The position numbers were made by a program, and so were the translations under genes. A stretch of DNA of 37,887 nt from a virus: positions 1-37,887 of the IMG/VR virus record IMGVR_UViG_3300020220_000151. One strand, 5' to 3'. The first letter of the stretch is position 1, and each line of letters opens with the position of its first letter. The notes under the pieces are model-generated. The model saw only the letters and a list, made by a program, of their open reading frames with translations, had not been told where the DNA came from and ran no database searches. Of the stretch, positions 1-30,210 are shown piece after piece.

Positions 1-3000
1 ATGGATATTTCTGCAGGCGCCCAAATGTGGTCCCCGCGCAAATCGAATGATTCCGAAACGATTGACTCCACGTCAGACAAATCAAAACTGCCCAACGTAA
101 GAGATTCGACATATCGCTTCCTTTGGTTGTAGAGGGCACTAGCAATGGTGTCTTTCCTGCCGGTTTTATTTTCAAACAGTACGGCTAGGGGTTGAAAAAA
201 CATCGCCGCCAGGGAGCCGTCTTCCGACAGCCTGGAAAGACGGGCGCCTGCTTCCAGTACATCGCCACCACCGGTATAGGTTTGGTCGCTGGCGGTGTCG
301 CCGCTTACCGCAAGCGTTCTCTGTGCGACTTCTGGCCTTAAAACAATCGAATTTCTGCCGTACTGGTCGCCAACTTTTGAAGATTTGTTGCCGACGCCCG
401 TTTGGGCTGCATCCCTCCCCTTTCGACCGACAGACGGTGCGTCGTGCTGTATTTCAACATCATCACCATAGATGGAGCGCAATCTTTGTATTCTTTCGCT
501 GCTTGGCCCTTTTTGTAGGGCCTGCCCAGATGACGGCCTGAGCGACGTTGTTTTTGAGTCTGTATCTACCGGAAACCGCATCAACTGATTTTCGACAGTC
601 CTTCTAATTGCGGGAACATCCAAACCCCTATTTGCGAACGGGTCTCCACCCTGTGTTTTTCTGCCCGAATGCACGGTTTCATATCTGCCATTCTCAATCA
701 ATCCGCGCGTGTCCCCCATCATGACGATTGGCCGACTATCAAATGGGCTTTCAAAATTCGCCGCAGCATCTTTGACCGCTGAATTGTATTGTTCGGGCGT
801 CATCGACTGAATTTCTTGGATGAAATTGTCTATTTGGGAAACAAGTTCTTTGTCGCCCCTTTCTTCGGCCACGAGTCGCATAACCTCAAGCCTCAAACCA
901 AAAGAATCCTTATTGTCAAAATCCCTCAATTCCCTCAAGATGTCCTGGTCCGACTTGCCTAAATCTTTTGCGTAACCTCGCACTGTTTGTTTCTGATAAT
1001 CATTTAATTTGGGAGCAATCTCTATGTTTTGAAGATATTCATGACTTCTTGGTGACAGTCTGGCGGTTTCGCGTTCGCCTATTACGCGCGGAAGTATTTC
1101 TCTTTCTTGTCTGTCCAAATCGACACCAATGTCTTCGGCCCTTGCGAGAATATCTACGTTTTTTTGACGGGTAAATTCGCCGTGTATCGCTTTATTGATT
1201 TCGTCAACCGTGCTGGAGGCTAAGCCGCGACTGCGCGGCAATTCTTTGTCAGGATTGTAAGTCCGAGGAATTTTTTCAAGTTCTAAAATCAAATCATCTG
1301 GTCTATTTGCTGCTCCGGCATCTCTGACTTTTCCGTAGGAAACGTTTTCAAATTCCCTGGTAGTTCCGTTACGGTAGGAAACTTTCAACGTTTGGGTCTG
1401 GGGGTCGTACTCGATTTTTTGCGCCAATTTTGATTTTCGCGGGTCGACCTCCATTGCCACCGCTGTTTGGGTTCTGTTTATGCGTGCCGCCTCTTGTCGT
1501 CTTTCAATTCTGTTTTCTGCGCGCTTAGCAATTATTCTTTGCGCAAGCGGGCGCGATTCGTTTGAACCCAAAGAATGAAACGTCTGGCGCAATTCGTTAA
1601 GTTGCGTTTCGGTGTTTCTTTGCGAAGTAACTTGGCCAACGATAACATTATTTTTTGTTTTGCCGATAATTTCAATTTCTCCGGGCGGCAAAATCAGAGC
1701 GCCTATTTCGCCTTTTTGTGTTCCGGGCGTATTATCGGGTAGACCAGTAGAGCCTTCTGGAACCAATATCATCATTCTTTGGCCTTGTTGCTCCGATGGT
1801 CGACTGGGCCCTGTGCCACCAATATCTTCAGCCGAATGAATAACCGCGGTAAAATGTTTATTGACAGCAATTTTTGTTCCCCGTTCGCCATCAAGCGTGT
1901 CAAAGGAATTTGATGGAAAATTTATTTCAGCAACGAAGTCGGTGGGCAGTTCAGATGAGTCAATTAAATCCATAAATGGAATAAATTGTTGTTCTATGGC
2001 ATTGACTACTTCTTCTGGCCTACCCTGTAGGGCCCGAGCCCATGTTGTTGGGTCGGATGTATTCCAAAGCGAATTTCGCCAGTTGGCTTCAAGAATTTGT
2101 TTTTGCTGACTCGTCGCATTTTCCAAAACCGATTCTCTGACTAGATTGTTTGTTCTTGATGCTTGACTCCTTGAAGCAAAACCCCTCAAGGCTTCTTTGA
2201 CGCGTGAAACCACGTCGGTTAAACTTTCTGGTATTTCCTCATCTAAACCAAAATCATCAACGGGCGAAAGTCTGTCAATGCCCGCATCAATCATTGCCCG
2301 ATTTTTTCTTTTTTGCCTAAAATCAGTAAGACGAAGTCTTTTTTTCACTTCAGCCTTGATTGTGTCCTTATTGATTGAGATAACGGGCTTGGCTGATGGA
2401 TTGGCTACGCCAAAATCAGGAGAAATGTCGCTATCATAATTTAGCGGACCAAGGAAAGCCTCTATTTCTGGTGTTTTTTGAATAAATCCAGACTCAATGC
2501 CTGCCGCTAGTTCGGCTTGCATTTCTGCGATGGTTGTTGCGCTTGAAATTTGAAAATTTAATTTTATTTTATTAAATTTGTCTAAATTGCTGGCTTGATA
2601 AATTTCGGCCATTTCCTCGTAAACTCTTAACGCCACTTGGTATTTTGTTGACCCTCGGTCCATTGTTTTCATTTGTTGGTGCAACTGCATTAAGGGCAGG
2701 TATAAATCTTCAACGCGTGAAATGTTTTTATCAGCAAACGAACTAAGAAAAGCGGCCCTATAATAATGTTGCATCGCATACCTTCCCCCGGCTTTTTTGC
2801 TTAGAAGGACCTGCATAATTTCAGGTAAATTGTCGATGGCGCCGGGCAGCCAGTCAGAATTACTTATAATTGACGCATAATCCCAATCTTGTCCAAATAC
2901 GCTAAAATATTTTTCCTTTCCGCTAAGTAACTTTTCGGCAAGCAAAAGTATTTCTTTGTTTGTCATCGTCTCTTTTAAGCCAGGAATGGATTTCAAAAAT

Positions 3001-5018
3001 CTTTCGATAAGCAAAAGTTGCCGACCGTGCGTTACTTCATGATTTATGATGTAAATTGCTTGACCTATTTCGCCCATACTTTTTTGGATGTACCGTTGGA
3101 TGAATGCATTTCCTTGCTCAACACTTTGTTCAAGTGCATCAAGGGACATCAATTCCTCGAAATACGCAGTTTTGGCTTTCGCTGCGCCAGCCCTATCTAA
3201 CGAAGATGAAATTGCCTGCAGTTTGGCAACTTCCGTGCCTGCTGTTTTTGTTGGCTCAAATAATGTGAAATCTTTAGACTCTGGGTCGAAATCATTTTGC
3301 AGCAAGGGCCTTAACGGATTCAGGGCAATATAAAAACCGCTGCCGTCGAGTTCGGCTGCATAGGCAACCGCATCACTTCCGCCTTGATTTTTGTCAAATG
3401 GCGAAAGAAATTCAATCCTTCTAAGGTTGTCCATCAACCTTGGATTTCGTCGTCGTTGGTTAAGTATTCCAATAAGATATCCCGCTTCCATTTTGCGTAG
3501 TTCGTCAAATTTTTTCTGAGCCTTAAAAATTATTTTTCCTTCTTCCGAACTGTCGCCAAAGGCCTCACTTACCGATTTCGCTCCGGTTAAAACCTCCATC
3601 AATGCTTTTTGGAATTCTGCATGGTTGCCTCCGTATTTACTATTAACTAATTTGTCCAATTCGTCCGGACTTAATCCAAAATGATTTGGTTGAGTCATAA
3701 GTACTCTTAAAATAAGTTGTAATTGTTTTTCCCTATGTGCGGACATGGCTGTGTCAAAGTTGCGACCAATACCTTTTCCAAAATATTTACCTAGAGTTAT
3801 GCCCCATCCACCGTGTTCTGGTGTTTTCAATAAAAGAAAAACTTTTGCTAAACCGTTTTGCACGGAGTCAGGGTCGTTTGGGTCAATCATTACTCCGAGT
3901 TCCGCGGCAAAATCCATAATTTCCTGCACATCCAAGTCGGCCTTGTCTCTAAATTGTTGGCGCTGAACAGCCTGTTTTATTAATTTTCGAATCTCTTCTT
4001 CGCTTTTTTCCGGAAAGGCTGCGCGAATTGCGGAACTAAATTCTTCTTCATACCTATCGGGGGTAATAGTTTTCGCACTGGCCCTAATTTCTTCTATATC
4101 CCTAATCAAGTCAGGGCTAAGCGGTGCCGGCGGTCTGACTATCGGACGGCCATCAGGGCCAAGTAATTCTCCAGTTGGCCCCATAATCGCCGAAGAAGCA
4201 AGGCCTCTCCTTACCCTTCCCATCACTTCTGGCGATGCCGTTATGACCTCGCCGGAATTTCCCCGCATGGTTGGGATTGCCTCGTTGATGCTCAGTACGT
4301 CTTGAAAAATTTCGTGGTTTACGTTTTGTATAATTTTCATCACTGCGCGCCCAATAAGGGGAGTAAAGTCAAAACAATTACTACCGATATCGTCTGTAAA
4401 TTGATTTGCCGCCGGCACTCCGGGTGGGCACCGCATTCTTCCACTAGCGTCAATTATGATTCCAATTGCCCTTGCCGCCGCCTGTCCCAAATTGCCCACT
4501 GTTCCGCCAATATTGGGGCCAAGGGCTTTGACGCTAAGTTGGCCGGTTCGTTTATTCATTTTTGCTGGGCGCGCGATTACCTGAGGTTCGGTTTGGGATT
4601 GGAGAAATTGTGTTACTTGTTGGTTATAGTTTTCGGCGTCTGTGGTTTTGGGTAAATCAAGCCAACCAATATTTGGCACGTCACCAAGCAATCCATCAAG
4701 ATTAAATCGTGGCTTTATCTCAAAATATTGATTTGGTTTTGCCTTCGCATTTGGGTCAAAACAATATGTGCCTAGGCGTGTAAGTTTGGATTCTTTTTTT
4801 CTTCTTTCTTTGTTGTCTGCCGCCGCATTGCGGTTTTTCCCGCCAGAACGCCCACCCATTGCCGCCTTGACTGCATAATTCGGCGAAAATGGATAGATGC
4901 TTGTGAAAATTTGCCCCTGGGCGAATTCTTGTACTCGTTGCTCAATCGACTTTGTTTGTATTGGTGCAAATTTTGTACTTGTTAAAAAACGAGACGCGAC
5001 TATTTTTTTTTGCCGCAT
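1..5018 (-). CDS. Giant multidomain virion-type protein (HExxH, ART-like, KTSC-like), partial
   Basis: The frame is open on the minus strand from ATG at 5018 to the window edge, giving 1672 codons with no stop; the C terminus lies left of base 1. An AAGGTG-like ribosome site precedes the ATG, and the upstream gene ends 32 bases away. Features by residue: a basic N terminus; a Cys-bearing motif near 195-215 (RCPPG, then NQFTDD); HEVTH at 660-664, the zincin HExxH signature; an ADP-ribosyltransferase-like half-domain near 1030-1115 (MMILVPEGSTG, then ILPPGE); and a KTSC-like domain near 1195-1260 (IEYDP, YRNGTTREF). The last ~170 residues (YGDDVE, RPEVAQRT, GDTA) vaguely recall toxin-type C termini. 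In the ART-like segment the usual ExE pair is not clearly aligned, so activity is doubtful. Position after portal and protease suggests a head-associated, possibly injected protein. Open frame is certain; domain names are pattern reading. Confidence 0.8.
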   Translation of the reverse strand, partial: MRQKKIVASRFLTSTKFAPIQTKSIEQRVQEFAQGQIFTSIYPFSPNYAVKAAMGGRSGGKNRNAAADNKERRKKESKLTRLGTYCFDPNAKAKPNQYFEIKPRFNLDGLLGDVPNIGWLDLPKTTDAENYNQQVTQFLQSQTEPQVIARPAKMNKRTGQLSVKALGPNIGGTVGNLGQAAARAIGIIIDASGRMRCPPGVPAANQFTDDIGSNCFDFTPLIGRAVMKIIQNVNHEIFQDVLSINEAIPTMRGNSGEVITASPEVMGRVRRGLASSAIMGPTGELLGPDGRPIVRPPAPLSPDLIRDIEEIRASAKTITPDRYEEEFSSAIRAAFPEKSEEEIRKLIKQAVQRQQFRDKADLDVQEIMDFAAELGVMIDPNDPDSVQNGLAKVFLLLKTPEHGGWGITLGKYFGKGIGRNFDTAMSAHREKQLQLILRVLMTQPNHFGLSPDELDKLVNSKYGGNHAEFQKALMEVLTGAKSVSEAFGDSSEEGKIIFKAQKKFDELRKMEAGYLIGILNQRRRNPRLMDNLRRIEFLSPFDKNQGGSDAVAYAAELDGSGFYIALNPLRPLLQNDFDPESKDFTLFEPTKTAGTEVAKLQAISSSLDRAGAAKAKTAYFEELMSLDALEQSVEQGNAFIQRYIQKSMGEIGQAIYIINHEVTHGRQLLLIERFLKSIPGLKETMTNKEILLLAEKLLSGKEKYFSVFGQDWDYASIISNSDWLPGAIDNLPEIMQVLLSKKAGGRYAMQHYYRAAFLSSFADKNISRVEDLYLPLMQLHQQMKTMDRGSTKYQVALRVYEEMAEIYQASNLDKFNKIKLNFQISSATTIAEMQAELAAGIESGFIQKTPEIEAFLGPLNYDSDISPDFGVANPSAKPVISINKDTIKAEVKKRLRLTDFRQKRKNRAMIDAGIDRLSPVDDFGLDEEIPESLTDVVSRVKEALRGFASRSQASRTNNLVRESVLENATSQQKQILEANWRNSLWNTSDPTTWARALQGRPEEVVNAIEQQFIPFMDLIDSSELPTDFVAEINFPSNSFDTLDGERGTKIAVNKHFTAVIHSAEDIGGTGPSRPSEQQGQRMMILVPEGSTGLPDNTPGTQKGEIGALILPPGEIEIIGKTKNNVIVGQVTSQRNTETQLNELRQTFHSLGSNESRPLAQRIIAKRAENRIERRQEAARINRTQTAVAMEVDPRKSKLAQKIEYDPQTQTLKVSYRNGTTREFENVSYGKVRDAGAANRPDDLILELEKIPRTYNPDKELPRSRGLASSTVDEINKAIHGEFTRQKNVDILARAEDIGVDLDRQEREILPRVIGERETARLSPRSHEYLQNIEIAPKLNDYQKQTVRGYAKDLGKSDQDILRELRDFDNKDSFGLRLEVMRLVAEERGDKELVSQIDNFIQEIQSMTPEQYNSAVKDAAANFESPFDSRPIVMMGDTRGLIENGRYETVHSGRKTQGGDPFANRGLDVPAIRRTVENQLMRFPVDTDSKTTSLRPSSGQALQKGPSSERIQRLRSIYGDDVEIQHDAPSVGRKGRDAAQTGVGNKSSKVGDQYGRNSIVLRPEVAQRTLAVSGDTASDQTYTGGGDVLEAGARLSRLSEDGSLAAMFFQPLAVLFENKTGRKDTIASALYNQRKRYVESLTLGSFDLSDVESIVSESFDLRGDHIWAPAEIS

Positions 5019-5050
5019 TCTGGGCACCTTTTCTTAACTAAAAAACACAA

Positions 5051-6430
5051 TTATTGTTTTTTGTTTTGCTCCTCGGCAATTTCTGAATTGAGCAATTCAA
5101 ACTCCAACAATTGAGACATGAAATTATCGTCAATGCTGGGTGTGTTTGTTTCTTCTGCTGATTTGCCGCCCGCCACCCAGTTTGCGGGAATCATTGACTC
5201 GGCATTAAGGGCCCTGGCGCGTTTCATGATATGAATTTTCGCAGCGCCCTTATTCTTCGCTCTTCCAAATGCCTGTATCGCATTTTGCAAATCTTCTTTG
5301 TTTGCAATCGGGTAAGACCCGTCAGGAAGCGCGGTTCCCGATTCGGCCATCTTGGAACGTTCGTCATCAGTGAATGCCCGCTTTAGGGCAATCTCCGCTG
5401 CTTCCGCCTCAATATCTTGGGCGTCTTCTTCGTCGTATTTATCATAACCAAGCACTTCGCCGTCAAGCGAAACGAATACGTCGTAAGACTTGCCGTCAAG
5501 ACCATCAATTTCGACCGCATATGAGTCGTAACCTTCAAAAACGTCAGGTTCGACTGCAACCACATGTCCCTGAATTGACTTGGTTGCAATCTCCGCTGCG
5601 TCATTAAAGTCAATGAGCATCATGTCGTCAACAAGAGATTTTTGTTCAAATGCATTGTTGTCAAGTTTGTGCCAACCAAGCACTTCGGCTGTCGTGCCGT
5701 CAATAAACACTTCAATGGGTCTTCCATCTTTTGCTTCGACGTCAACGACAAACATATCAGCCTCTGCCGAATAGCCTGAATCCAGAACTTTGCCGTCAAA
5801 CATTTCTTCCGCAATTCCTTCAACGTGAAGCAAACCGGGCATACCTTTCTCGGAAACACAACCACCTACGCAGTCGTCACAAATTGGTTGGCCGCCCGGA
5901 TATACCTTTCGGTCAATTCCGCAAAGATAGCCCCTGGCGCCAACATCTGCTGTTTTGTAGCCCATGGTCCTTAAACGACGAGATTTCATTTGCTCCATTT
6001 CGTCGTCTTCTTCCTCGTCCTCATCTTCGTCTTCGTCCGTGACGTCTGTAGGCTCCCCTTCGGGCGCCTCTTCGTCTTCTGCTACTTCCTCTTGGCCTTC
6101 TTCCTCGTCTTCCTCTTCGTCCTCATCTTCGTCCACGGACGGCTCTGAAGCCTTCATTTTTATCTTCTTTTTCTTTGCTCTCCCATACATTTTCTTTTCG
6201 TCGCCCTCGTTCTCTTCGTCATCCTCGGCAACAACAACTTCGTCCTGTTCACTTATTTCCTCTTCGTCTTCCATCGGCACGGCTTTCATCATCATCGGCA
6301 TTGCACCACATTTTGCGCATACCTTTGCCTCCGGCACATAACCGCAGCCCGCAACGTCGGCGCCCTTAGCGCACTTCAGAATCGAACCATCAGCATCCAA
6401 TTTGACGACTGTGTTCTTGTCATAATCCAT
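5051..6430 (-). CDS. Head-module protein with Cys knuckles, acidic linker and PepSY-like repeats
   Basis: This 459-residue protein starts at ATG 6430 behind a strong AAGGAG site (6438-6443, 7-base spacer). The N terminus has four cysteines (C20, C29, C38, C41; CAKCGA), probably a zinc knuckle. Residues ~55-145 are almost wholly Glu/Asp with a few Lys patches. A second Cys cluster (LCGID, ICDDC, GGC) follows near 165-190. Two PepSY-like units then occur, roughly 215-260 and 270-335 (each ends in a VFIDGTTAEVLGW- or VFVSLDGEVLGY-type strand). The C-terminal stretch (GTALPDGSYPI, NAIQAFGRAKN, HIMKRARAL) matches a short domain that recurs in phage head proteins and proteases, often named DUF6582. 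It is probably a capsid-associated or scaffold-like protein. No HK97 capsid fold is recognisable, so I do not call it the major capsid. Function is inferred from context. Confidence 0.8.
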   Translation of the reverse strand: MDYDKNTVVKLDADGSILKCAKGADVAGCGYVPEAKVCAKCGAMPMMMKAVPMEDEEEISEQDEVVVAEDDEENEGDEKKMYGRAKKKKIKMKASEPSVDEDEDEEEDEEEGQEEVAEDEEAPEGEPTDVTDEDEDEDEEEDDEMEQMKSRRLRTMGYKTADVGARGYLCGIDRKVYPGGQPICDDCVGGCVSEKGMPGLLHVEGIAEEMFDGKVLDSGYSAEADMFVVDVEAKDGRPIEVFIDGTTAEVLGWHKLDNNAFEQKSLVDDMMLIDFNDAAEIATKSIQGHVVAVEPDVFEGYDSYAVEIDGLDGKSYDVFVSLDGEVLGYDKYDEEDAQDIEAEAAEIALKRAFTDDERSKMAESGTALPDGSYPIANKEDLQNAIQAFGRAKNKGAAKIHIMKRARALNAESMIPANWVAGGKSAEETNTPSIDDNFMSQLLEFELLNSEIAEEQNKKQ

Positions 6431-16597: not shown

Positions 16598-17161
16598 ATG
16601 GACGGTTATGGCGATGCTAAAAGCCTTATATTTATGGGCCTCGATTTATCTTTAACTTCTACTGGGGTTAGTGTCGGCGGCAAAACGTTTTCAATTAAAT
16701 CAAAACTTAGGGGCATACAAAGATTAGTTGAAATATCGGAACAGGTTATTGAGTCCGCAAAAAAGACGAATCCGGCGATAGTAATTCTTGAGGGCTACTC
16801 TTATGGTTCAAAATTTTCGCGGGCTCACGCTTTGGGGGAATTGGGTGGGGCCGTAAAGGTTGGTCTCCATTTGGCTGGTTTTAGGATTGTCGAGGTGCCA
16901 CCCAAATGTAGGGCTAAATTTGCCACCGGGAACGGTAATGCAAGCAAAAATGACGTTATGGCTTTTATGGCCTTAAATTTCCCTGGGTTGTTTGCAAAAA
17001 CCTGTGGCGATGACGAATATGATGCATGGGTGCTTGAGCAAATGGGGTATGCCCAAATAGGCGAGTGTTCGTTTCGGTGGTCAAATAGTCAATTGCTTGG
17101 CCTAAAAAGAGTAGATTGGTCACCACTATATGAAGCCCTAGGGGGGAAAATTGATGGGTAG
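16598..17161 (+). CDS. RuvC-like Holliday junction resolvase
   Basis: RNase H-fold resolvase of the RuvC type, which cuts four-way junctions so that replicating DNA can be packaged. Acidic residues are in place: GLDLSLTSTG (D16), VILEGYSYG (E65) and GDDEYDAWVL (D138, D139, D142). Basic loop residues (KCRAKF, near 104-108) fit DNA contact. At 187 residues the length is normal for RuvC. ATG 16598 is used; an internal ATG at 16634 just before GLDLS is possible, and neither has a clear ribosome site. It overlaps the next gene slightly. Confidence 0.9.
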   Translation: MDGYGDAKSLIFMGLDLSLTSTGVSVGGKTFSIKSKLRGIQRLVEISEQVIESAKKTNPAIVILEGYSYGSKFSRAHALGELGGAVKVGLHLAGFRIVEVPPKCRAKFATGNGNASKNDVMAFMALNFPGLFAKTCGDDEYDAWVLEQMGYAQIGECSFRWSNSQLLGLKRVDWSPLYEALGGKIDG

Positions 17162-17492
17162 GTCAAAACCGATAAGCCAAGTTGAAATCGAGCAAGAATT
17201 GTTGCGAATGATGGACATGTTGGAACAAGAAACCGAGGCATTTGAAAAACTTGCAGAAGATTCTGCAAAGAAAGAAGCGCTATTTAAAGCAAATTGGGCC
17301 AAAGAATATCTTTCTGCAAAAGGCTCAATCAAAGAACGTGAGGCTTGGGCTGATTACAAAATGGCTGATTTAAATTATGATTACAAAATTTCAGAGGCTT
17401 TGGTAAAATCGAAGCGAGAAAAATTATTATCCCTTCGAACATCAATGGATTCTTTGCGAACCCTTAATGCAAACGTCAGGGTACAGGTGTGA
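17154..17492 (+). CDS. Coiled-coil hypothetical protein
   Basis: A 112-residue, Lys/Glu-rich helical protein (QELLRMMDMLEQETEAFEKLAE, then SKREKLLSLRTSMDSLRTL), probably a coiled coil. I prefer ATG 17154 over the in-frame TTG at 17151 because a GGGGGG run lies just upstream. It overlaps the resolvase stop and the next gene's GTG, so it belongs to the same translational chain. I do not recognise the family. Similar small helical proteins accompany RuvC and ParB-like genes in environmental phages, but this is only an impression. Confidence 0.75.
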   Translation: MGRSKPISQVEIEQELLRMMDMLEQETEAFEKLAEDSAKKEALFKANWAKEYLSAKGSIKEREAWADYKMADLNYDYKISEALVKSKREKLLSLRTSMDSLRTLNANVRVQV

Positions 17493-18283
17493 ACAACATT
17501 CACTCTTCCCTAAAATCTATGGCTTTTCCGCTTAGTCAACTTACGTACCTTGAAAACAACCCGAGAAAAGGAAACGTTGAAGCAATAATCGCATCATATG
17601 CGGAATTTGGGCAAATAAAACCAATAGTGGCGAAATTGAACGAGGACGGAAGCGCAACGATAATTGCCGGCAACCATCAAGTTATGGCGGCAAAGCAACT
17701 TGGCTGGGATGAAATAGCCGTTGTATTTTTAGACGCTGACGATAAACGTGCAATTGCTTTTGCGCTTGCCGATAATCGCACCATGGAGTTGGGGTACACC
17801 GATAGCGACATGTTGCAAAAACTTCTCACTGAAGTTTCCACAGATTACGGCGAACTTTGGGCCGGCTTGGGTTGGGATGAATTTGAAATAGCAGCCATGG
17901 ATGAGCGCGCGATAATTAAGGCGCACGACGAACTGACGCAATCAAAATACATTCCTCCAGTTATTGTGACCGACATGGAAGACGAACAAAGCGAAATAGA
18001 TAAGCAAATTTTATCTTTGGGCCAAACCGACAATGATGGCGAAAATAAATTGATAGCCCCCAAAGATATAAGTCATAATGAGGTTGCCATACGTGGTTCG
18101 GGTGTTGCCATTCCCGGGTCTCAGCCACAAGCAATAGTGTCCGTTCAACTGGTTTTTGATTCGCCAGAACAGCAACGTCGTTGGTACGACTTTGTTCGAT
18201 GGTTGCGGAATGACCCCGGAATTGATGGCGCCACAACCGCCGAGCGATTAATAAATTTTATTGACTCATATACAAACGCATGA
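17489..18283 (+). CDS. ParB/sulfiredoxin-like nucleotide-binding protein (first of two)
   Basis: The N-terminal ~100 residues match the ParB/Srx fold (ParBc, PF02195 type): PLSQLTYLENNPRKGN (NPR at 24-26), a helix YAEFGQIKPIVAKL, then IIAGNHQVMAAKQLGWDEIAVVFL (61-80). The canonical G-E-H-R pocket is replaced by GNHQ, so the catalytic or CTP-binding chemistry may differ. There is no clear helix-turn-helix of plasmid ParB, so partitioning is unlikely. The remaining ~160 residues end in a region (SPEQQRRWYDFVRWLRNDP) that looks like a protein-interaction domain. It starts at GTG 17489 overlapping the previous stop, and its stop overlaps the PAPS-reductase-like start. Phage ParB-like proteins often act as nucleases, regulators or modification cofactors; which applies here is open. 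Confidence 0.85.
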   Translation: MNNIHSSLKSMAFPLSQLTYLENNPRKGNVEAIIASYAEFGQIKPIVAKLNEDGSATIIAGNHQVMAAKQLGWDEIAVVFLDADDKRAIAFALADNRTMELGYTDSDMLQKLLTEVSTDYGELWAGLGWDEFEIAAMDERAIIKAHDELTQSKYIPPVIVTDMEDEQSEIDKQILSLGQTDNDGENKLIAPKDISHNEVAIRGSGVAIPGSQPQAIVSVQLVFDSPEQQRRWYDFVRWLRNDPGIDGATTAERLINFIDSYTNA

Positions 18284-19428
18284 CCAGGCAGCGTCTATTT
18301 TTGGATATTAATTGTGTCGACGCAGCCCGACAACGGATTCGCCATGTTTATGACACCTTTGATACGGTTTGTGTTCAGTTTTCTGGCGGCAAAGATTCGA
18401 CCGCCGTATTGCTTTTGGCAAAAGAACTACACGAAGAACGCGGGTTGGGTCCGGTTCGAACCATTTTCAGAGACGAAGAAATGGTGAGTCCGCTCGTAAT
18501 TAATTATGTCAATTACGTCCGGCAGTTGCCCTGGGTTGAAATGGAATGGTATTGCATGCCCCAGGGTTCGGAAGTTTGGGTCCTTGGTAAGCGTGAATCA
18601 ATTATTATGTGGAGCGAAATAAGAAGAAAAGAAGGACGTCTTTGTCGTGAAATACCGCCTTGGGCAATAACTGCCGAACATTTTGGATTGCCGCCAGGTA
18701 AACCACCACCGGAAATTGTTGACTATTACACAATGCAGGGCAAACAGGGAAATACTGCATTTATAACCGGCGTGCGGGCATCGGAATCGATGCTTCGTTA
18801 TAGGTCTTTGGTGCAAAAATTGCATGAAAATTATATTGTCACTCCATATAAGTCAAAAAAGGGAATTCCCTTAAAGTTTGCAAAAATAATTTACGATTGG
18901 CAAACTGCTGACGTATTTAAATACATTATTGAAGAACATAATTTTAAATATTGCGAATATTACGACCGCGCTGCCCTAACGGGCAGCAATACCAGGGTGG
19001 GCATTCCCCTGCATGGAATCGCAATTCGTAGAATTGGTGATGTCGTTAGGACCGAGCCGGAATTTTATGATGAATTAGTAAGGTGTTTTCCAGAAATTGA
19101 TGCTCAGCGTCTATATTGGGCGGTTTACGATTACGACAAATTAATTCGCCAATATGCCGATAAGGGTTTTGACGGCGCAAAAAAATTCATTAGGGATTTT
19201 ATGATGAACGAAACCAAGGCTTTGAGGGCAAAAGCGTTTGTTGCCGAATTTAGGCGCAAACATTTAATTGACCCGCGGTCCTACACGATTTATTCCCTTA
19301 TTTATCAAATGTTTATGGGCGCAATGGCTCATAGTGTTGCGGTGTCGCCGATAGGGCCAAAAACAAAATCCCATACGGTAAGGTCAATTTCTGAAATTGA
19401 TAGCATGGAGTTGAACGATGGAAATTAA
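18280..19428 (+). CDS. PAPS-reductase-like PP-loop ATP pyrophosphatase (IbrA-like)
   Basis: The N terminus has the PP-loop VCVQFSGGKDSTAVLLLA (SGGKDS at 35-40), which binds ATP and adenylates a substrate. Downstream, GNTAFITGVRASESMLRYRSL and TPYKSKKG follow the PAPS reductase family (PF01507) layout. At 382 residues it is longer than assimilatory CysH (about 240) and fits the IbrA/DUF3440-like group, in which the enzyme is paired with a ParB-like protein. The C-terminal 130 residues are an added helical domain. The gene overlaps ParB-like genes on both sides (4 and 11 bases), so the three are one unit. Sulfur or nucleotide modification, as for DndC, or a regulatory role as for IbrA/IbrB, are the main options. 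Confidence 0.88.
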   Translation: MTRQRLFLDINCVDAARQRIRHVYDTFDTVCVQFSGGKDSTAVLLLAKELHEERGLGPVRTIFRDEEMVSPLVINYVNYVRQLPWVEMEWYCMPQGSEVWVLGKRESIIMWSEIRRKEGRLCREIPPWAITAEHFGLPPGKPPPEIVDYYTMQGKQGNTAFITGVRASESMLRYRSLVQKLHENYIVTPYKSKKGIPLKFAKIIYDWQTADVFKYIIEEHNFKYCEYYDRAALTGSNTRVGIPLHGIAIRRIGDVVRTEPEFYDELVRCFPEIDAQRLYWAVYDYDKLIRQYADKGFDGAKKFIRDFMMNETKALRAKAFVAEFRRKHLIDPRSYTIYSLIYQMFMGAMAHSVAVSPIGPKTKSHTVRSISEIDSMELNDGN

Positions 19429-19960
19429 ATACATTCCAATTGAAGATTTAAAAATTGGAGATTGGCATGCAAATTATATTCTTAAACCTGAATTAAAAGT
19501 TCTTGCCTCTTCTATTGGTAATTTGGGTTTTGTTTCCCCATTAATAGTAATGAAGCGTGACAATTCAATTATCGATGGATATTACCGTTGGATGATTGTT
19601 AAAGAAAACAAAGAATTGAGTAAAAAACATCCAACGATTCCATGCGTTATCGTCGATTGCGATTCGCTTGAAGCGAGCATGTTGCATCTTCGAATCAATA
19701 GGTCTAGGGGTCAATTGGTCGCACACTTAGTTTCTGGGGTAATAAAAAAATTAGTCAGAAGCAAAAAATATAATGAAAAAGATTTGCAACAACTATTGTC
19801 AATGTCCGATGATGAACTCGACGTTCTTCTTGACGGAACAATAATTAAACGAATCAAAATTTCTGAACATAAATATTCACGTGCCTGGGTTCCAATCGAA
19901 GCCCCCAAAAACGCTTTGGAAAACTTTGTTCCCGAGAAACCGCCGAATGCTGATAGGTAA
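19418..19960 (+). CDS. ParB-like protein, second copy (IbrB-like)
   Basis: A 180-residue ParB/Srx-fold protein: IPIEDLKIGDWHANY, LASSIGNLGFVSPLIVM, then IIDGYYRWMIV (DGYYRW at 53-58), which corresponds to the DG-(F/Y)-HRW pocket of IbrB-like proteins, and MLHLRINRSRGQLV. A short helical region (EKDLQQLLSMSDDELDVLL) follows. It differs strongly from the upstream ParB-like protein, so it is not a recent duplication. Start ATG 19418 lies inside the PAPS-reductase-like gene, implying coupled translation. It is the last gene of the triad; a hairpin and the start of a separate small gene follow. Confidence 0.85.
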   Translation: MEIKYIPIEDLKIGDWHANYILKPELKVLASSIGNLGFVSPLIVMKRDNSIIDGYYRWMIVKENKELSKKHPTIPCVIVDCDSLEASMLHLRINRSRGQLVAHLVSGVIKKLVRSKKYNEKDLQQLLSMSDDELDVLLDGTIIKRIKISEHKYSRAWVPIEAPKNALENFVPEKPPNADR

Positions 19961-25368: not shown

Positions 25369-28300
25369 ATGCCTGATACACGCGCAGTAATACGCATAGA
25401 CACAAAAGATGACGGTGGTCCCAGAAAGTCAACCGAACGTGTCGATGAACTTGGCGACCACGCGACTAAAACTGCTGCCAGACTTAAAATATTGGGCAGC
25501 GCCGCAAATAGTACGTCCAAAAAACTTCTCGGGCTTGCATCGTCTGCAACTGCTGCTGGCGCCGCTTTAGAAACCGTTAATAAAAAAAGCCAAATTTTAA
25601 CTCGCGTAATGTATGCCGGCACCAAAATGCTCCGCATGTGGGGCAGCGTACTACAAAAATTCATAACGGGGGGTTTGAAACTTGCAACGATTGCTTTGGG
25701 CGCATTGTCGGTTTCGTTTGTTGGAATCCACGCTCTTTTTGTGACGGGCAGATTTTTGGTGAAATCGTACCACGTAGCCCTACAGGGTCTTGCCGCCGGC
25801 GCCGCGGGAGCGGCCGTAGCGATTGGCCTGGCATCATCGGCAATTCGTGAGCAACAGGCGGCAATGTTTGCGTATACAGGGAGAAACAACAAGGAATTTG
25901 GCAAAGGATTAAACCAAGTGAGGGTCAATATGCGAGGCCTTCAAATGGATGCTCAACTTGCCGGGATTGGCGTTGAAACCCTGAATAAGGCATACGCAGA
26001 AATTGCAAAAACAAAAACCGGATATTTGGCCAGCAGTAAAAGTTTGTTGAAGGATTTGTCAGATTTTGCATCAGCCGGACAACCGCTTGAAGAAGGAATG
26101 GTCAAAGCAGCAAAAGTTGTTGCGGCAATTCAGGACCCCAAAAAAGGTGTTGGCTCTATCAAGGCGGCATTCAAAGAACTTGGTCCAGCCGCAGAAGAAG
26201 CATTAAAGAAAGCGGCCAAAGAAGGAATTAACACCAAAAAAGAATTTATAGAAGCCATGAAAAGCGGCAAACTGTCTGCCCTCGGTGGTGTCACGGGCCA
26301 AATGGACGCGGTCAACAACACCATCATCGGACAACTTAAAAAATATTTTAATTTAATTCGCGGCCAATTTGCTGATTTTGGTCAACAATTTTTGCCTGAA
26401 GCAAAAGTTGGTCTAGAAAGAATTTACAGAATTATCACCCGCACTATGCAAATGTCATCGGGCGCGCTGGTCGGATGGGAAAAACGAGGCGGTTTCGTCG
26501 ATGCGATAGTCAACGCTACGCAAAAAGTTTCGGATTTCTACCTGCGCCTCATTCGAGATTATTTACCAAAATCCGAAGGAATGTTTAACCGACTTGGTCA
26601 ATGGTGGAGTAATTTTAAGGAGGGCTGGAACGACATACTCCGACAACTGAGACCATTCATTGACGGCGCTCGAATAATTGAAAAAATGTTTGGTAACGCC
26701 TGGAGACCCATCTGGGCCGAAATCACTGATGCTTCGCGTGAATTCAACAGAATGCTTCAATTCAACAGGCAACAGTTTGAAAAATTGGGCTCAACAATCG
26801 GGGAATCGGTGGCAGAATTGCTAACGATTCTCAGGGTTTTTCAGAGGGTTATTCAAGAAAACCTTCCGTTTATTAACAACATGATTCGTGGCCTGAAGGT
26901 GATAGCAGAACAATTCACACGAGTTTTCAAATTCATGGAAGGTCTTCCGTTTTTTGGCGGCCAACTTGGAAGCCAGGGCGCCACGGCATTGATGCTCGCT
27001 ATGGCTCGTGGAATGAAAACCGCGAGAGGAACTGTTGTTGACGAAAAAAAATTGACTCAAACAATGAATGTTCAAGCAAGACAGGTTACCATATGGGGTA
27101 CCGCACAGGGTGCTTATCAAGGATTCAAATTGGGTTCAAATCCGGCGATTGCTAGCGCAACTGGGGGTTTTGGGCCCTTGGTTGGTGCGGTTACGGGTGG
27201 GGCTATGAAAGGTGGTTGGCTGGGCCCAGGGGCCCAAAACCTGTGGGAAAAAAATTATCCGCTGCTCAGAACTGCAAACGCCTTGACTGGTGGTCCAGAC
27301 AGGGTCGGCGGCGCTTCGGGCGCACTTGGCCTGAGTGCATCAACAAGCAGTCTTGCTAGCGCCGCCACTTCTATGGGCAGTGCACTTAGTTCTTCGACTG
27401 GTGGCCTTAATAGTTTTACTAGTGCCCTAAGCAATGCGACCCGTGCCGTTACCGGTCGTGGGATGCCAACGGGCACAACCCCCTGGGCACCACCAACAGG
27501 CCCTAGTAGCCCAGGTGCTGGTTACGTGCCATTTAGTATTCCGGGCGGTACTAGTTCTCCTTTTACGCCCCCCCCATCAAGTAGCGGTAAGGGATTGCTC
27601 GGTAAGTGGTTCATGCATGGACCACCAATGTTTGAAGGGCGTGGAAAAGTTAAAGCAGGCAAAGGTAGTAGGTACGGCATATCTAGACACTTTAGTGCGC
27701 TAAGTCGAGGGACCGGAAGAATTATGAGTGTCTCCAACCAAATAAAAGCAGACCGAGATGAGCGCGGTTCGAAATTCAAGATGGACGGCATGATTGGTGC
27801 GTTCTTGCTGCAGCAGAGTTTGTCAAAACTTTCAAACAGGGTGGGGGACGAAGATATTAAGGGGGGCCTTGGTCTTGCATCCGCGATGGCTTTGTTTAGT
27901 CCAAAATTGGCGGCCGGAATCGCTGGCGGCACGTTCGCTGTTAAAAGCGGCAACATGGGTCTAGCGATAGGTGGTGGCGCGCTCGCAGGCGCTCAGATTG
28001 GCAAATCGTTTGGCCCGATGGGCACAGCATTGGGTATGGCAATCGGAACAATCACCGGTGCCATCATGGCGCCAATCAACGCCCTCAAGGCAAAAAGAAA
28101 AGAAGCAGGCGCGATGGTTGATTCGTTCTTCGCCAACTCGTTCGGAAAATTTTTGGTGAATATGTCGTTGATTGAGAATGCGGCCAGAAATTCGGGCGCA
28201 AAAGAAACAACAATAACAAATCAAATGAAAAAACAAACCGACCAGTACAAAATGTTTGCCGAACTTTCCAAGAAAGGCGCTCTGTTGGGTGGCAAAAAAG

Positions 28301-30210
28301 CAAGTAGGCAGAGTTTTGTTGAGTCAGTGACAATGGGCGCCGGCGTAGGTACGGGTGTAGGAATGGCCGCCGGTACCGGCTTAGGTATAGCGACATCCGG
28401 ACTGACAGGCGGGATAAGTATCCCTGCCGGCATGGCGGGTGGCCTTCTTTTGGGTGGCCTTCTTGGGGGCGTAGCAGGGGGAATAGGTTGGGGAGTACAA
28501 AAGGGTGTTGATTTTTTTGGGGGCGCTTCAGCGGAAGACAAACGCAATAGGAAGATAAGGCAATCTACGGTTAAAGAAATTTATGCGGCGGGCGGAATGA
28601 GTACTGCACAATTCGAACGCTTGACCAGCAAACACAAAAGGAGATTTGCTGGAGACCAAGAAGTTGATGATGACCTACAAGCACTCTTTCTTGACAAATT
28701 CTTTAAAAAAAGTGAAGCAATGGCACTTGCTAGCGAAAATGCAGAGAAGACAGTAAATGCTCGCCTTAAGTTGATGGAGCAAATGACAGGCAAGTCATCA
28801 ATGGAATTGGTGAGCCTTGCCCAAACTATGGGTGTCAACTTGGCAGATTCCACGCAGGATTTCAATGACCAACTAAAACAACTTGGGGTGACGGTTGTCA
28901 AAACGGCTGGACAAATTAATCAGGCGGTTAGCGAATTAGCGACAAATGCCTTTGCCAAAGCATTTGACACCACAATCAGGCAAGAAAAAGCGCCTTTAAT
29001 TCTTGATGAAGCAATCAAAAATTTTAGGCAGGATTTCAACCAGCGTGGCGCCAACGCGACAGTAACAGCAGAAGACGCGCAATCAGTTTTTTCTACCTAT
29101 TTAGAACAACTTACCAACGCATATGGCGGCGATTCTGTTAAAGCGTTTTTTGAACTTGAACGTCAAATAGGAACCGCGGGCGGTCTCGCATTCCGGGAAA
29201 TCAATCCGGCAACAGGCAAAAAAAATCCTCTTGGTGGTTTGGGCAATTTATTTTTCCAAGGCATGTCTGGTCAGGCAATAAATGAGGCCATGGGGAGCAC
29301 TCGCAGCGGTTTAATGGGCACAATGTTGCCGCAACTAGGCGCAATATTGGCCCAGGGCCAAAGAAGCCTTGGGCAAGGCGGAATCAAAGCAGTCGAAAAC
29401 AAATTTAAAACCTTGAGTCTGGATGAGCAAGAAAGATTTTTTACCGCCATCAGGGATAACAATATTGGAAGTAGGCCTGAAGATTTCTTCGCGCGCTTTG
29501 GTATGACTGGCTCTGAGTTTCAATTGCAAGAAATAAGCGAAACATCCGCTGCGTTCGCAATGGCAAAAGACAATGCGGAAAAAGAAAAAGTATTGCTTGA
29601 GGCTGAAAGAGAAGTCGTTGAAGGTATGGCGAAATTTTTCGGTCCTGCTTCAGAGAACCCAGAATGGTGGAGCAAAGACGCCTTGAGAGACCTCTTCATA
29701 GAAGCAGGCATAATAAAGGAGGAGCCGGATACGAGTACTCCTCGCGGGGGGAGATTCGGCGACACGACAGGCTCAAGGTTGTCGAGAACGCTTGCACGCC
29801 ACAGCGCAATAAACGACATGGTTGCCGGCCGCCGCTCAATCACGTCAGCATTCAGAACGCACAATTTAGGCTCCATAAATTCCGACCACGTAACTGGTCG
29901 CGCATATGATTTGGTCGGAAATCAACTTGGAATGTACAAAACGATTGTCGAAAGGCAAGGCGGTTTTGCAGAGTTCCATGGTGGTTCAACAAACCGACAT
30001 TTGCATGTCGTTCCGGGCCCTGGCGGACCAATGGGCGACACGGTTTCCCCATACACCAGACCCATGCAACGCCCAGTTATCCCCGCAACGGTCAGTCGTG
30101 GGGATATATCCGTGAACCTAAACGTAAACGGCATTGGCATCAAAGAAGCCATTCCCCAAATTAAAGCCGAATTAGAACGCGCGCTTTACGAATATCAGAA
30201 TAGGTCGTAA
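25369..30210 (+). CDS. Tape measure protein with C-terminal M15-type peptidase motif
   Basis: A 1613-residue protein that fixes tail length; at roughly 0.15 nm per residue it would correspond to a tail of about 240 nm. The N-terminal part has long helices; several Gly/Ala-rich hydrophobic stretches occur near residues 60-160 and 850-1050 (GVGMAAGTGLGIATSG, GGLLLGGLLGGVAGG), the usual membrane-channel segments. Two Pro/Gly/Ser-rich linkers fall near 650-760. Near the C terminus SDHVTGRAYD (1505-1514) matches SxHxxGxAxD of peptidase M15, with H1507 and D1514 as metal ligands, and RHLHV (H1546) supplies a third. The enzyme would locally cut peptidoglycan cross-links during genome delivery. It follows the chaperone and precedes the baseplate genes. 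Confidence 0.93.
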   Translation: MPDTRAVIRIDTKDDGGPRKSTERVDELGDHATKTAARLKILGSAANSTSKKLLGLASSATAAGAALETVNKKSQILTRVMYAGTKMLRMWGSVLQKFITGGLKLATIALGALSVSFVGIHALFVTGRFLVKSYHVALQGLAAGAAGAAVAIGLASSAIREQQAAMFAYTGRNNKEFGKGLNQVRVNMRGLQMDAQLAGIGVETLNKAYAEIAKTKTGYLASSKSLLKDLSDFASAGQPLEEGMVKAAKVVAAIQDPKKGVGSIKAAFKELGPAAEEALKKAAKEGINTKKEFIEAMKSGKLSALGGVTGQMDAVNNTIIGQLKKYFNLIRGQFADFGQQFLPEAKVGLERIYRIITRTMQMSSGALVGWEKRGGFVDAIVNATQKVSDFYLRLIRDYLPKSEGMFNRLGQWWSNFKEGWNDILRQLRPFIDGARIIEKMFGNAWRPIWAEITDASREFNRMLQFNRQQFEKLGSTIGESVAELLTILRVFQRVIQENLPFINNMIRGLKVIAEQFTRVFKFMEGLPFFGGQLGSQGATALMLAMARGMKTARGTVVDEKKLTQTMNVQARQVTIWGTAQGAYQGFKLGSNPAIASATGGFGPLVGAVTGGAMKGGWLGPGAQNLWEKNYPLLRTANALTGGPDRVGGASGALGLSASTSSLASAATSMGSALSSSTGGLNSFTSALSNATRAVTGRGMPTGTTPWAPPTGPSSPGAGYVPFSIPGGTSSPFTPPPSSSGKGLLGKWFMHGPPMFEGRGKVKAGKGSRYGISRHFSALSRGTGRIMSVSNQIKADRDERGSKFKMDGMIGAFLLQQSLSKLSNRVGDEDIKGGLGLASAMALFSPKLAAGIAGGTFAVKSGNMGLAIGGGALAGAQIGKSFGPMGTALGMAIGTITGAIMAPINALKAKRKEAGAMVDSFFANSFGKFLVNMSLIENAARNSGAKETTITNQMKKQTDQYKMFAELSKKGALLGGKKASRQSFVESVTMGAGVGTGVGMAAGTGLGIATSGLTGGISIPAGMAGGLLLGGLLGGVAGGIGWGVQKGVDFFGGASAEDKRNRKIRQSTVKEIYAAGGMSTAQFERLTSKHKRRFAGDQEVDDDLQALFLDKFFKKSEAMALASENAEKTVNARLKLMEQMTGKSSMELVSLAQTMGVNLADSTQDFNDQLKQLGVTVVKTAGQINQAVSELATNAFAKAFDTTIRQEKAPLILDEAIKNFRQDFNQRGANATVTAEDAQSVFSTYLEQLTNAYGGDSVKAFFELERQIGTAGGLAFREINPATGKKNPLGGLGNLFFQGMSGQAINEAMGSTRSGLMGTMLPQLGAILAQGQRSLGQGGIKAVENKFKTLSLDEQERFFTAIRDNNIGSRPEDFFARFGMTGSEFQLQEISETSAAFAMAKDNAEKEKVLLEAEREVVEGMAKFFGPASENPEWWSKDALRDLFIEAGIIKEEPDTSTPRGGRFGDTTGSRLSRTLARHSAINDMVAGRRSITSAFRTHNLGSINSDHVTGRAYDLVGNQLGMYKTIVERQGGFAEFHGGSTNRHLHVVPGPGGPMGDTVSPYTRPMQRPVIPATVSRGDISVNLNVNGIGIKEAIPQIKAELERALYEYQNRS

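Follow-up and report, generated by a model that had tools for sequence, protein, structure and literature searches.

What is an enzyme of the PAPS reductase superfamily doing between two ParB-like proteins in a phage genome? The question is raised by IMGVR_UViG_3300020220_000151, a 37.9-kb IMG/VR virus contig (37,887 nucleotides; hereafter the window). A first-pass annotation had described three overlapping genes at positions 17489-19960, encoding a ParB-like, a PP-loop and a second ParB-like protein in that order, and had proposed that they form one functional unit, new in its arrangement, for modification or regulation. Three intact open reading frames (ORFs) are indeed present there, Pfam and PHROGs assignments agree with the description, and the SGGKDS, GNHQ and DGYYRW motifs singled out at the time are all in place. 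The analysis below shows that the PP-loop enzyme and the second ParB-like protein (ParB2) constitute a fixed pair, whereas the first (ParB1) stands apart and is linked less tightly; the pair may be the core of a pathway that modifies nucleic acid. The relevant features are as follows.

17489-18283, + strand: ParB1, ParB/Srx-fold protein of 264 aa with a GTG start, phrog_723 (ORF, Pfam, PHROGs)
17669-17680, + strand: GNHQ motif, ParB1 residues 61-64, GERR in Noc/ParB (alignment)
18280-19428, + strand: the enzyme, PP-loop ATP-pyrophosphatase-like protein of 382 aa with a PAPS_reduct domain, phrog_2302 (ORF, Pfam, PHROGs)
18382-18399, + strand: SGGKDS PP-loop, enzyme residues 35-40 (alignment)
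18544-18555, + strand: EWYC motif, enzyme residues 89-92 (alignment)
19418-19960, + strand: ParB2, IbrB/YbdM-like ParB protein of 180 aa, phrog_2159 (ORF, PHROGs, profile match)
19574-19591, + strand: DGYYRW motif, ParB2 residues 53-58, counterpart of GERR (alignment)
19871-19888, + strand: KYSRAW motif at the ParB2 C-terminus, YSRAW in Escherichia coli YbdM (alignment, profile comparison)

ParB1 and the enzyme overlap by 4 nt (ATGA), the enzyme and ParB2 by 11 nt. Pfam matches were ParB_N for ParB1 (8e-8), PAPS_reduct for the enzyme (3e-10) and ParB_N for ParB2 (0.0016, under the Pfam cut-off); PHROGs gave phrog_723 at 1.7e-39, phrog_2302 at 1.1e-75 and phrog_2159 at 1.5e-26, respectively.

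A fixed pair and a looser third gene

All counts of loci in this report come from chosen seed queries and the matches listed for them; they describe a sample that is not unbiased and should not be taken as natural frequencies. With only the enzyme as query, a scan yielded at least 542 confirmed relatives. Among the 80 kept viral loci whose downstream flank was long enough, ParB2 lay within 150 nt of the enzyme in 72 and at a greater distance in 3; in the remaining 5 it was not found. Since, in addition, the triad turns up in phages whose hosts are unrelated, this linkage goes beyond chance. The bacterial loci recovered in an SGGKDS-based scan have ParB2 nearby in 77 of 80 instances.

ParB1 was found within 300 nt of the enzyme in 50 of the 62 loci with enough upstream flank (further away in 8, not found in 4). 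When ParB1 itself served as the anchor, 59 loci offered 4 kb or more of downstream sequence. In 48 of them the enzyme and ParB2 were both near, and in 11 neither was; no locus had just one of the two nearby. Nine ParB1 records with neither gene near were searched over their entire length: in four the enzyme lies at a distance of about 7-9 kb from ParB1, with ParB2 beside it where checked, and no enzyme was found in the other five, which are fragments of 14-46 kb. A 113-aa gene that precedes ParB1 in the window remains with ParB1 where the pair sits elsewhere. Co-variation of the three proteins was measured by partial Mantel correlation of their distance matrices in 32 dereplicated loci, corrected for two neighbouring genes. 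The coefficient was 0.57 for enzyme-ParB2, 0.49 for ParB1-ParB2 and 0.28 for ParB1-enzyme (p = 0.0002 each). The idea of one indivisible triad was therefore rejected, as ParB1 is separable from a pair that can lie 7-9 kb off or be missing from the record. A functional unit of all three genes is not supported, and by the condition named beforehand, unlinked ParB genes in homologous phages, the strict triad claim fails in a minority of phages.

Nor is the arrangement new, as the first-pass annotation had supposed: the same order is already in public records, from environmental phages (dozens of them) as well as cultured ones. The latter comprise Arthrobacter phage Kovu (genes 5-6-7), Bacillus phage 022DV001 (78-79-83), Mycobacterium phages Marley1013 (1-4-5, directly before the terminase) and prophi79-1 (92/93-95-97), and Rhizobium phage P11VFA (063-062-061), in which ParB2 is annotated IbrB. 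All five carry the three window families in identical order; they differ in that their enzymes are 29-38% identical to that of the window and that other accessory genes (GNAT, a methyltransferase-annotated ORF, small ORFs) stand between or after the three. No paper describing the triad as a system was found in the literature searched, and none describing the cupin-ParB fusion presented below; no link emerged from reports on Serratia phage eta or on nicked DNA in phages of the wheat phyllosphere.

Kinship and motifs of the three proteins

The pairing of a PP-loop enzyme with a ParB-like protein had been likened to IbrA/IbrB. To keep the homology test clean, hhalign profiles were built from window-type viral sequences only. 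The enzyme profile matched E. coli YbdN with 98.4% probability (E 4.3e-15, 227 columns; controls at most 0.3%) and the subfamily-only ParB2 profile matched YbdM with 98.3% (E 1.4e-14; controls at background), which bears the comparison out. With broader profiles the YbdN and YbdM matches cover nearly the whole proteins, ParB2 and YbdM ending in a common YSRAW. The IbrA of a Streptococcus phage scored 100% probability against an enzyme profile in which that sequence was itself included. In E. coli YbdN-YbdM and IbrA-IbrB, as in the window, a PAPS_reduct PP-loop enzyme is followed by an overlapping ParB-like gene, but identity to the window pair is about 20-25% and the window adds ParB1 upstream. 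Because DUF3440, the C-terminal domain of IbrA/YbdN in Pfam, is strong in the Streptococcus phage IbrA and finds no match in the window enzyme, the latter is termed a divergent relative of IbrA/YbdN (COG3969) and not a strict member. ParB1 gave no convincing profile match to YbdM (21.8%) and so does not qualify as IbrB/YbdM-like.

Whether the PP-loop protein keeps its catalytic residues had been named beforehand as a test, and they are kept. SGGKDS is conserved in at least 97% of 62 subfamily members and in 100% of 87 distant homologues. Invariant or nearly so in the latter are the PP-loop, D65/E67, GxRxxESxxR, YDWxxxD, W111, R123, Y228 and R239, and the PAPS_reduct motifs GxRxxESxxR and (Y/P)DWxxxD are conserved in both sets. 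ECGxH (ECG(I/L)H), the C-terminal catalytic motif of true PAPS reductases (CysH), occurred in none of the 87 distant or 62 window-type sequences, and no cysteine is strictly invariant in the alignment of the 87. The AlphaFold2 model of the enzyme (predicted local distance difference test, pLDDT, 83) matched PAPS reductases, FAD synthase, CysD, TilS and the tRNA thiolases NcsA and TtuA in the PDB, these matches spanning only part of the 382 residues (query template-modelling score, TM, 0.3-0.4); the closest viral structure model is annotated COG3969. Motifs and model suggest that the enzyme uses ATP to activate a substrate by adenylation rather than reducing sulfate. Sulfur transfer is possible and is not indicated, because both ECGxH and an invariant cysteine are absent.

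The sole well conserved cysteine is Cys92 of the EWYC motif, present in 75 of the 87 distant homologues. In three related loci (L212:4746-6857; L257:262-2364 and L258:262-2364, the last two near-identical to each other) an in-frame LAGLIDADG-type intein stands directly before this residue, giving ORFs of about 700 aa. Inteins prefer functionally important sites. A cysteine-persulfide mechanism was weighed for the conservation of Cys92 and the adjacent intein; it was kept as a possibility only, since alanine replaces the cysteine in the triad phages Kovu, 022DV001 and P11VFA.

Kinship to DndC of DNA phosphorothioation, likewise suggested by the first-pass annotation, was not supported beyond the PP-loop. 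The window enzyme shares with DndC, SspD and BrxP the PP-loop of the PAPS reductase superfamily, and the Dnd system has a ParB-fold protein, DndB. However, only the PP-loop segment matches: the score against the DndC family TIGR03183 (NCBIfam) was 22.6 bits, with a cut-off of 290.4, and the match was limited to residues 18-78. With no Dnd, Ssp or BREX partner among the scanned neighbours and no invariant cysteine in the family, DndC-like phosphorothioation was rejected.

ParB2 aligns with Noc/ParB over the NTP-binding motifs (NTP, nucleoside triphosphate) and into the helix-turn-helix region. D53, G54 and R57 of its DGYYRW motif are at least 97% conserved, as are N94-R95, the counterpart of ENxxR; thus Arg57 of the GxxR counterpart is retained. 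ParB1 comprises an N-terminal ParB domain, a poorly modelled linker (about 150-216) and a conserved C-terminal helical segment (about 220-262). Its structure model (pLDDT 68) resembles Noc/ParB of the PDB in the N-domain and is weak outside it. Invariant in the alignment of relatives are N24, G61-N62-H63, D95-N96-R97 and a C-terminal FxxxxQQxxWYxF. G-N-H is invariant among 40 relatives, while the fourth position of the motif, arginine in ParB, is Gln or Thr in window-type, Arthrobacter and Mycobacterium members (GNHT in actinophages). With GNHQ or GNHT in place of GERR, any nucleotide binding by ParB1 would differ. Elsewhere the ParB1-type domain occurs in fusion with DNA methylases, as in phrog_498 (5.8e-23) and in methylases of Gordonia phages and other phages.

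Company of the pair and possible functions

The pair has an SNF2 helicase as a neighbour in about 20 of 80 bacterial loci and, among dereplicated viral loci with sufficient flank, in 18 of 69; in L074 such a helicase directly adjoins an enzyme 67% identical to that of the window. In about 10 bacterial loci a GNAT-like ORF either separates enzyme and ParB2 or immediately precedes the enzyme, and viral loci too can have one between the two genes; four of the six bacterial ORFs tested had GNAT support in Pfam, one of them under the cut-off. Kovu has such an ORF after ParB2 (L082:5694-6116). The methyltransferase-annotated ORF of 022DV001 follows the enzyme, and its annotation was not confirmed by Pfam. 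Among 159 related viral loci seeded with IbrA-like queries, 98 encode an ectoine-synthase-like cupin (Pfam 2e-46; PDB 5bxx 1e-27), mostly in the slot between enzyme and ParB2. In gp104 of Mycobacterium phage Gaia (L430:4001-4900) cupin and ParB2 form one chain of 299 aa whose halves match at 3e-41 and 8e-66. Gaia and Pseudoalteromonas phage XCL1123 thus share with the window an IbrA-like enzyme plus an IbrB-like ParB, and differ from it in their ectoine-synthase-like domain, which is fused in Gaia and adjacent in XCL1123, and in having no ParB1 annotated beside the pair.

Several details of these cassettes were recorded along the way. The bacterial loci with a GNAT-like ORF in the enzyme-ParB2 slot are L097, L100, L109, L123, L125, L129, L142 and L155. 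Examples of the cupin are at L393:4753-5244 and L387:6275-6664. The cupin-type cassettes hold an additional conserved protein of about 120-226 aa, often as two ORFs and with no Pfam match, in 103 of the 159 loci (for instance L387:7220-7900, L087:4079-4504 and L393:5742-6176).

Together, the tight pairing, the YbdN/YbdM homology, PAPS_reduct motifs without ECGxH, the SNF2, GNAT and cupin genes, the Gaia fusion, the ParB1-type domains fused to DNA methylases and the enzyme-ParB2 co-variation led us to read the enzyme and ParB2 as the core of a pathway for nucleic-acid modification that is modular, depends on ATP and is directed by ParB, with phage DNA as the most probable substrate. We give this reading a probability of about 0.5. 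The role in modification proposed at first fits the wider gene neighbourhoods; sulfur chemistry is not supported. According to this scheme ParB2, through its NTP-binding ParB fold and helix-turn-helix-like part, would hold or recognise DNA and bring the enzyme to it. The enzyme would bind ATP and adenylate a base, a phosphate or the group to be added, preparing the attachment of a substituent. The GNAT or cupin protein that relatives encode between the pair or fused to ParB2 would then finish the attached group, with the SNF2 helicase perhaps opening the DNA or tracking it. The window lineage, with no tailoring enzyme beside the pair, would have ParB1 as an extra partner, maybe a second DNA-targeting or NTP-switch protein. 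A part for ParB proteins in DNA modification is plausible by analogy with DpdB, the ParB-like ATPase of a deazaguanine DNA-modification system (PMC12839542), and with the ParB domains that accompany phage cytosine-hypermodification genes (PMC12783734). More tentatively, and at clearly less than even odds, IbrA-IbrB-type pairs in general, YbdN-YbdM included, could be the core of an undescribed DNA-hypermodification pathway with interchangeable GNAT or cupin tailoring and ParB proteins that target DNA, the window being its extra-ParB, tailoring-free configuration.

Several observations weigh against modification. The cupin was found in 0 of 154 window-type loci; no GNAT match exceeded the cut-off in the window-type records searched whole; the bacterial pairs, YbdN-YbdM among them, are chromosomal and have no recurring restriction or defence neighbours; and IbrAB was reported to activate prophage eib genes in E. 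coli (Sandt 2002, as cited in PMC6008420 and PMC4541368). The last of these speaks directly for the main rival, gene regulation: ParB2, perhaps with ParB1, would be an NTP-gated DNA clamp switching phage or prophage transcription, and the PP-loop protein would make or sense a nucleotide ligand. The listing of YbdM as a predicted transcription factor (PMC9068703) and the alignment of ParB2 with Noc/ParB over both NTP-binding and helix-turn-helix regions agree with it. Regulation nevertheless leaves the cupin and GNAT genes in one slot, the cupin-ParB fusion and the SNF2 helicases unexplained, and we regard it as unlikely, though ahead of the other alternatives.

Rather improbable is chemistry on RNA or small molecules, in which the enzyme would modify tRNA or make a nucleotide-derived molecule that serves, for instance, to take over the host or to counter its defences; the ParB/Srx proteins would be NTPases instead of DNA clamps. 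Here the fold matches to FAD synthase, TilS, NcsA and TtuA besides PAPS reductases would find a place, as would the small-molecule substrate of ectoine synthase and the small-molecule kinases SerK and SbnI of the ParB/Srx fold; the SNF2 helicases and the ParB1-type/methylase fusions, however, point to DNA.

ParB-like nucleases have been reported in phages and mobile elements (PMC5512222), and ParB1 and ParB2 could on that precedent nick host or rival DNA, or else segregate a plasmid prophage, with the PP-loop protein as a modulator. Such a module is very improbable, for ParB1 has lost the GxxR arginine and the strict pairing of ParB2 with the enzyme would go unexplained. Plasmid partition (ParABS) in particular was rejected: ParB1 and ParB2 scored 35.3 and 14.5 bits against the ParB family TIGR00180, whose cut-off is 58.45, and no ParA was seen among the window proteins scanned, which were part of the ORFs. 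Finally, auxiliary sulfur metabolism, with a true PAPS reductase boosting host sulfate assimilation and ParB neighbours by chance, has the PAPS_reduct domain and the usual annotation in phage papers (e.g. PMC6145125) in its favour and is hardly credible given the absence of ECGxH, for which a true PAPS reductase was rejected, the near-universal ParB2 linkage and the partial fold matches.

The window arrangement is accordingly a variant of a known pair, and its interest lies in the wider comparison of that pair's neighbours. The pair is very widespread among phages and on bacterial chromosomes, that of E. coli K-12 included, and no biochemical function for it was found in the literature searched. 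From the slot enzymes, the cupin-ParB fusion, the SNF2 helicases and the ParB1-type/methylase fusions, the modification reading derives a concrete chemical expectation, a new nucleoside in virion DNA. If correct, it would explain many phage "PAPS reductases" and "ParB nucleases" and add a non-sulfur class of DNA modification.

Phage context and minor observations

Family searches placed genes for TerL, a Rad52-like annealing protein, a PD-(D/E)XK exonuclease and HNH and RuvC-like proteins upstream of the triad, portal and protease genes on the opposite strand, and a tail sheath gene downstream. The tail sheath together with the TerL, portal and protease set identifies a contractile-tailed phage. 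A 59.8-kb contig holds a near-identical stretch, and other relatives occur in contigs of up to 154 kb. The gene preceding the triad is the following.

17151-17492, + strand: 113-aa protein, phrog_1389, overlapping ParB1 by 4 nt (ORF call, PHROGs)

In large relatives (L209:5541-7444; L072:6719-7411; L079:6044-8004; L081:4883-5338) the stretch from the 113-aa gene through ParB1 to the PP-loop gene is interrupted by a gene for a dCMP-deaminase-like protein, a ThyX thymidylate synthase or both. In L234 an ORF (5172-5999) separates the 113-aa gene from ParB1. It begins with LSLGAGVQSTALL, has the look of a further PP-loop protein and has no Pfam match; this fragment shows no enzyme-ParB2 pair.

Two very long ORFs of the window lie outside the triad region. 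One, of 1613 aa (25369-30210), falls in the tail region, has no PHROG matches and is perhaps a tape measure. The other, of 1675 aa, runs off the left end on the minus strand (3-5027), carries an HEVTH metallopeptidase-like motif and may be a very large virion protein.

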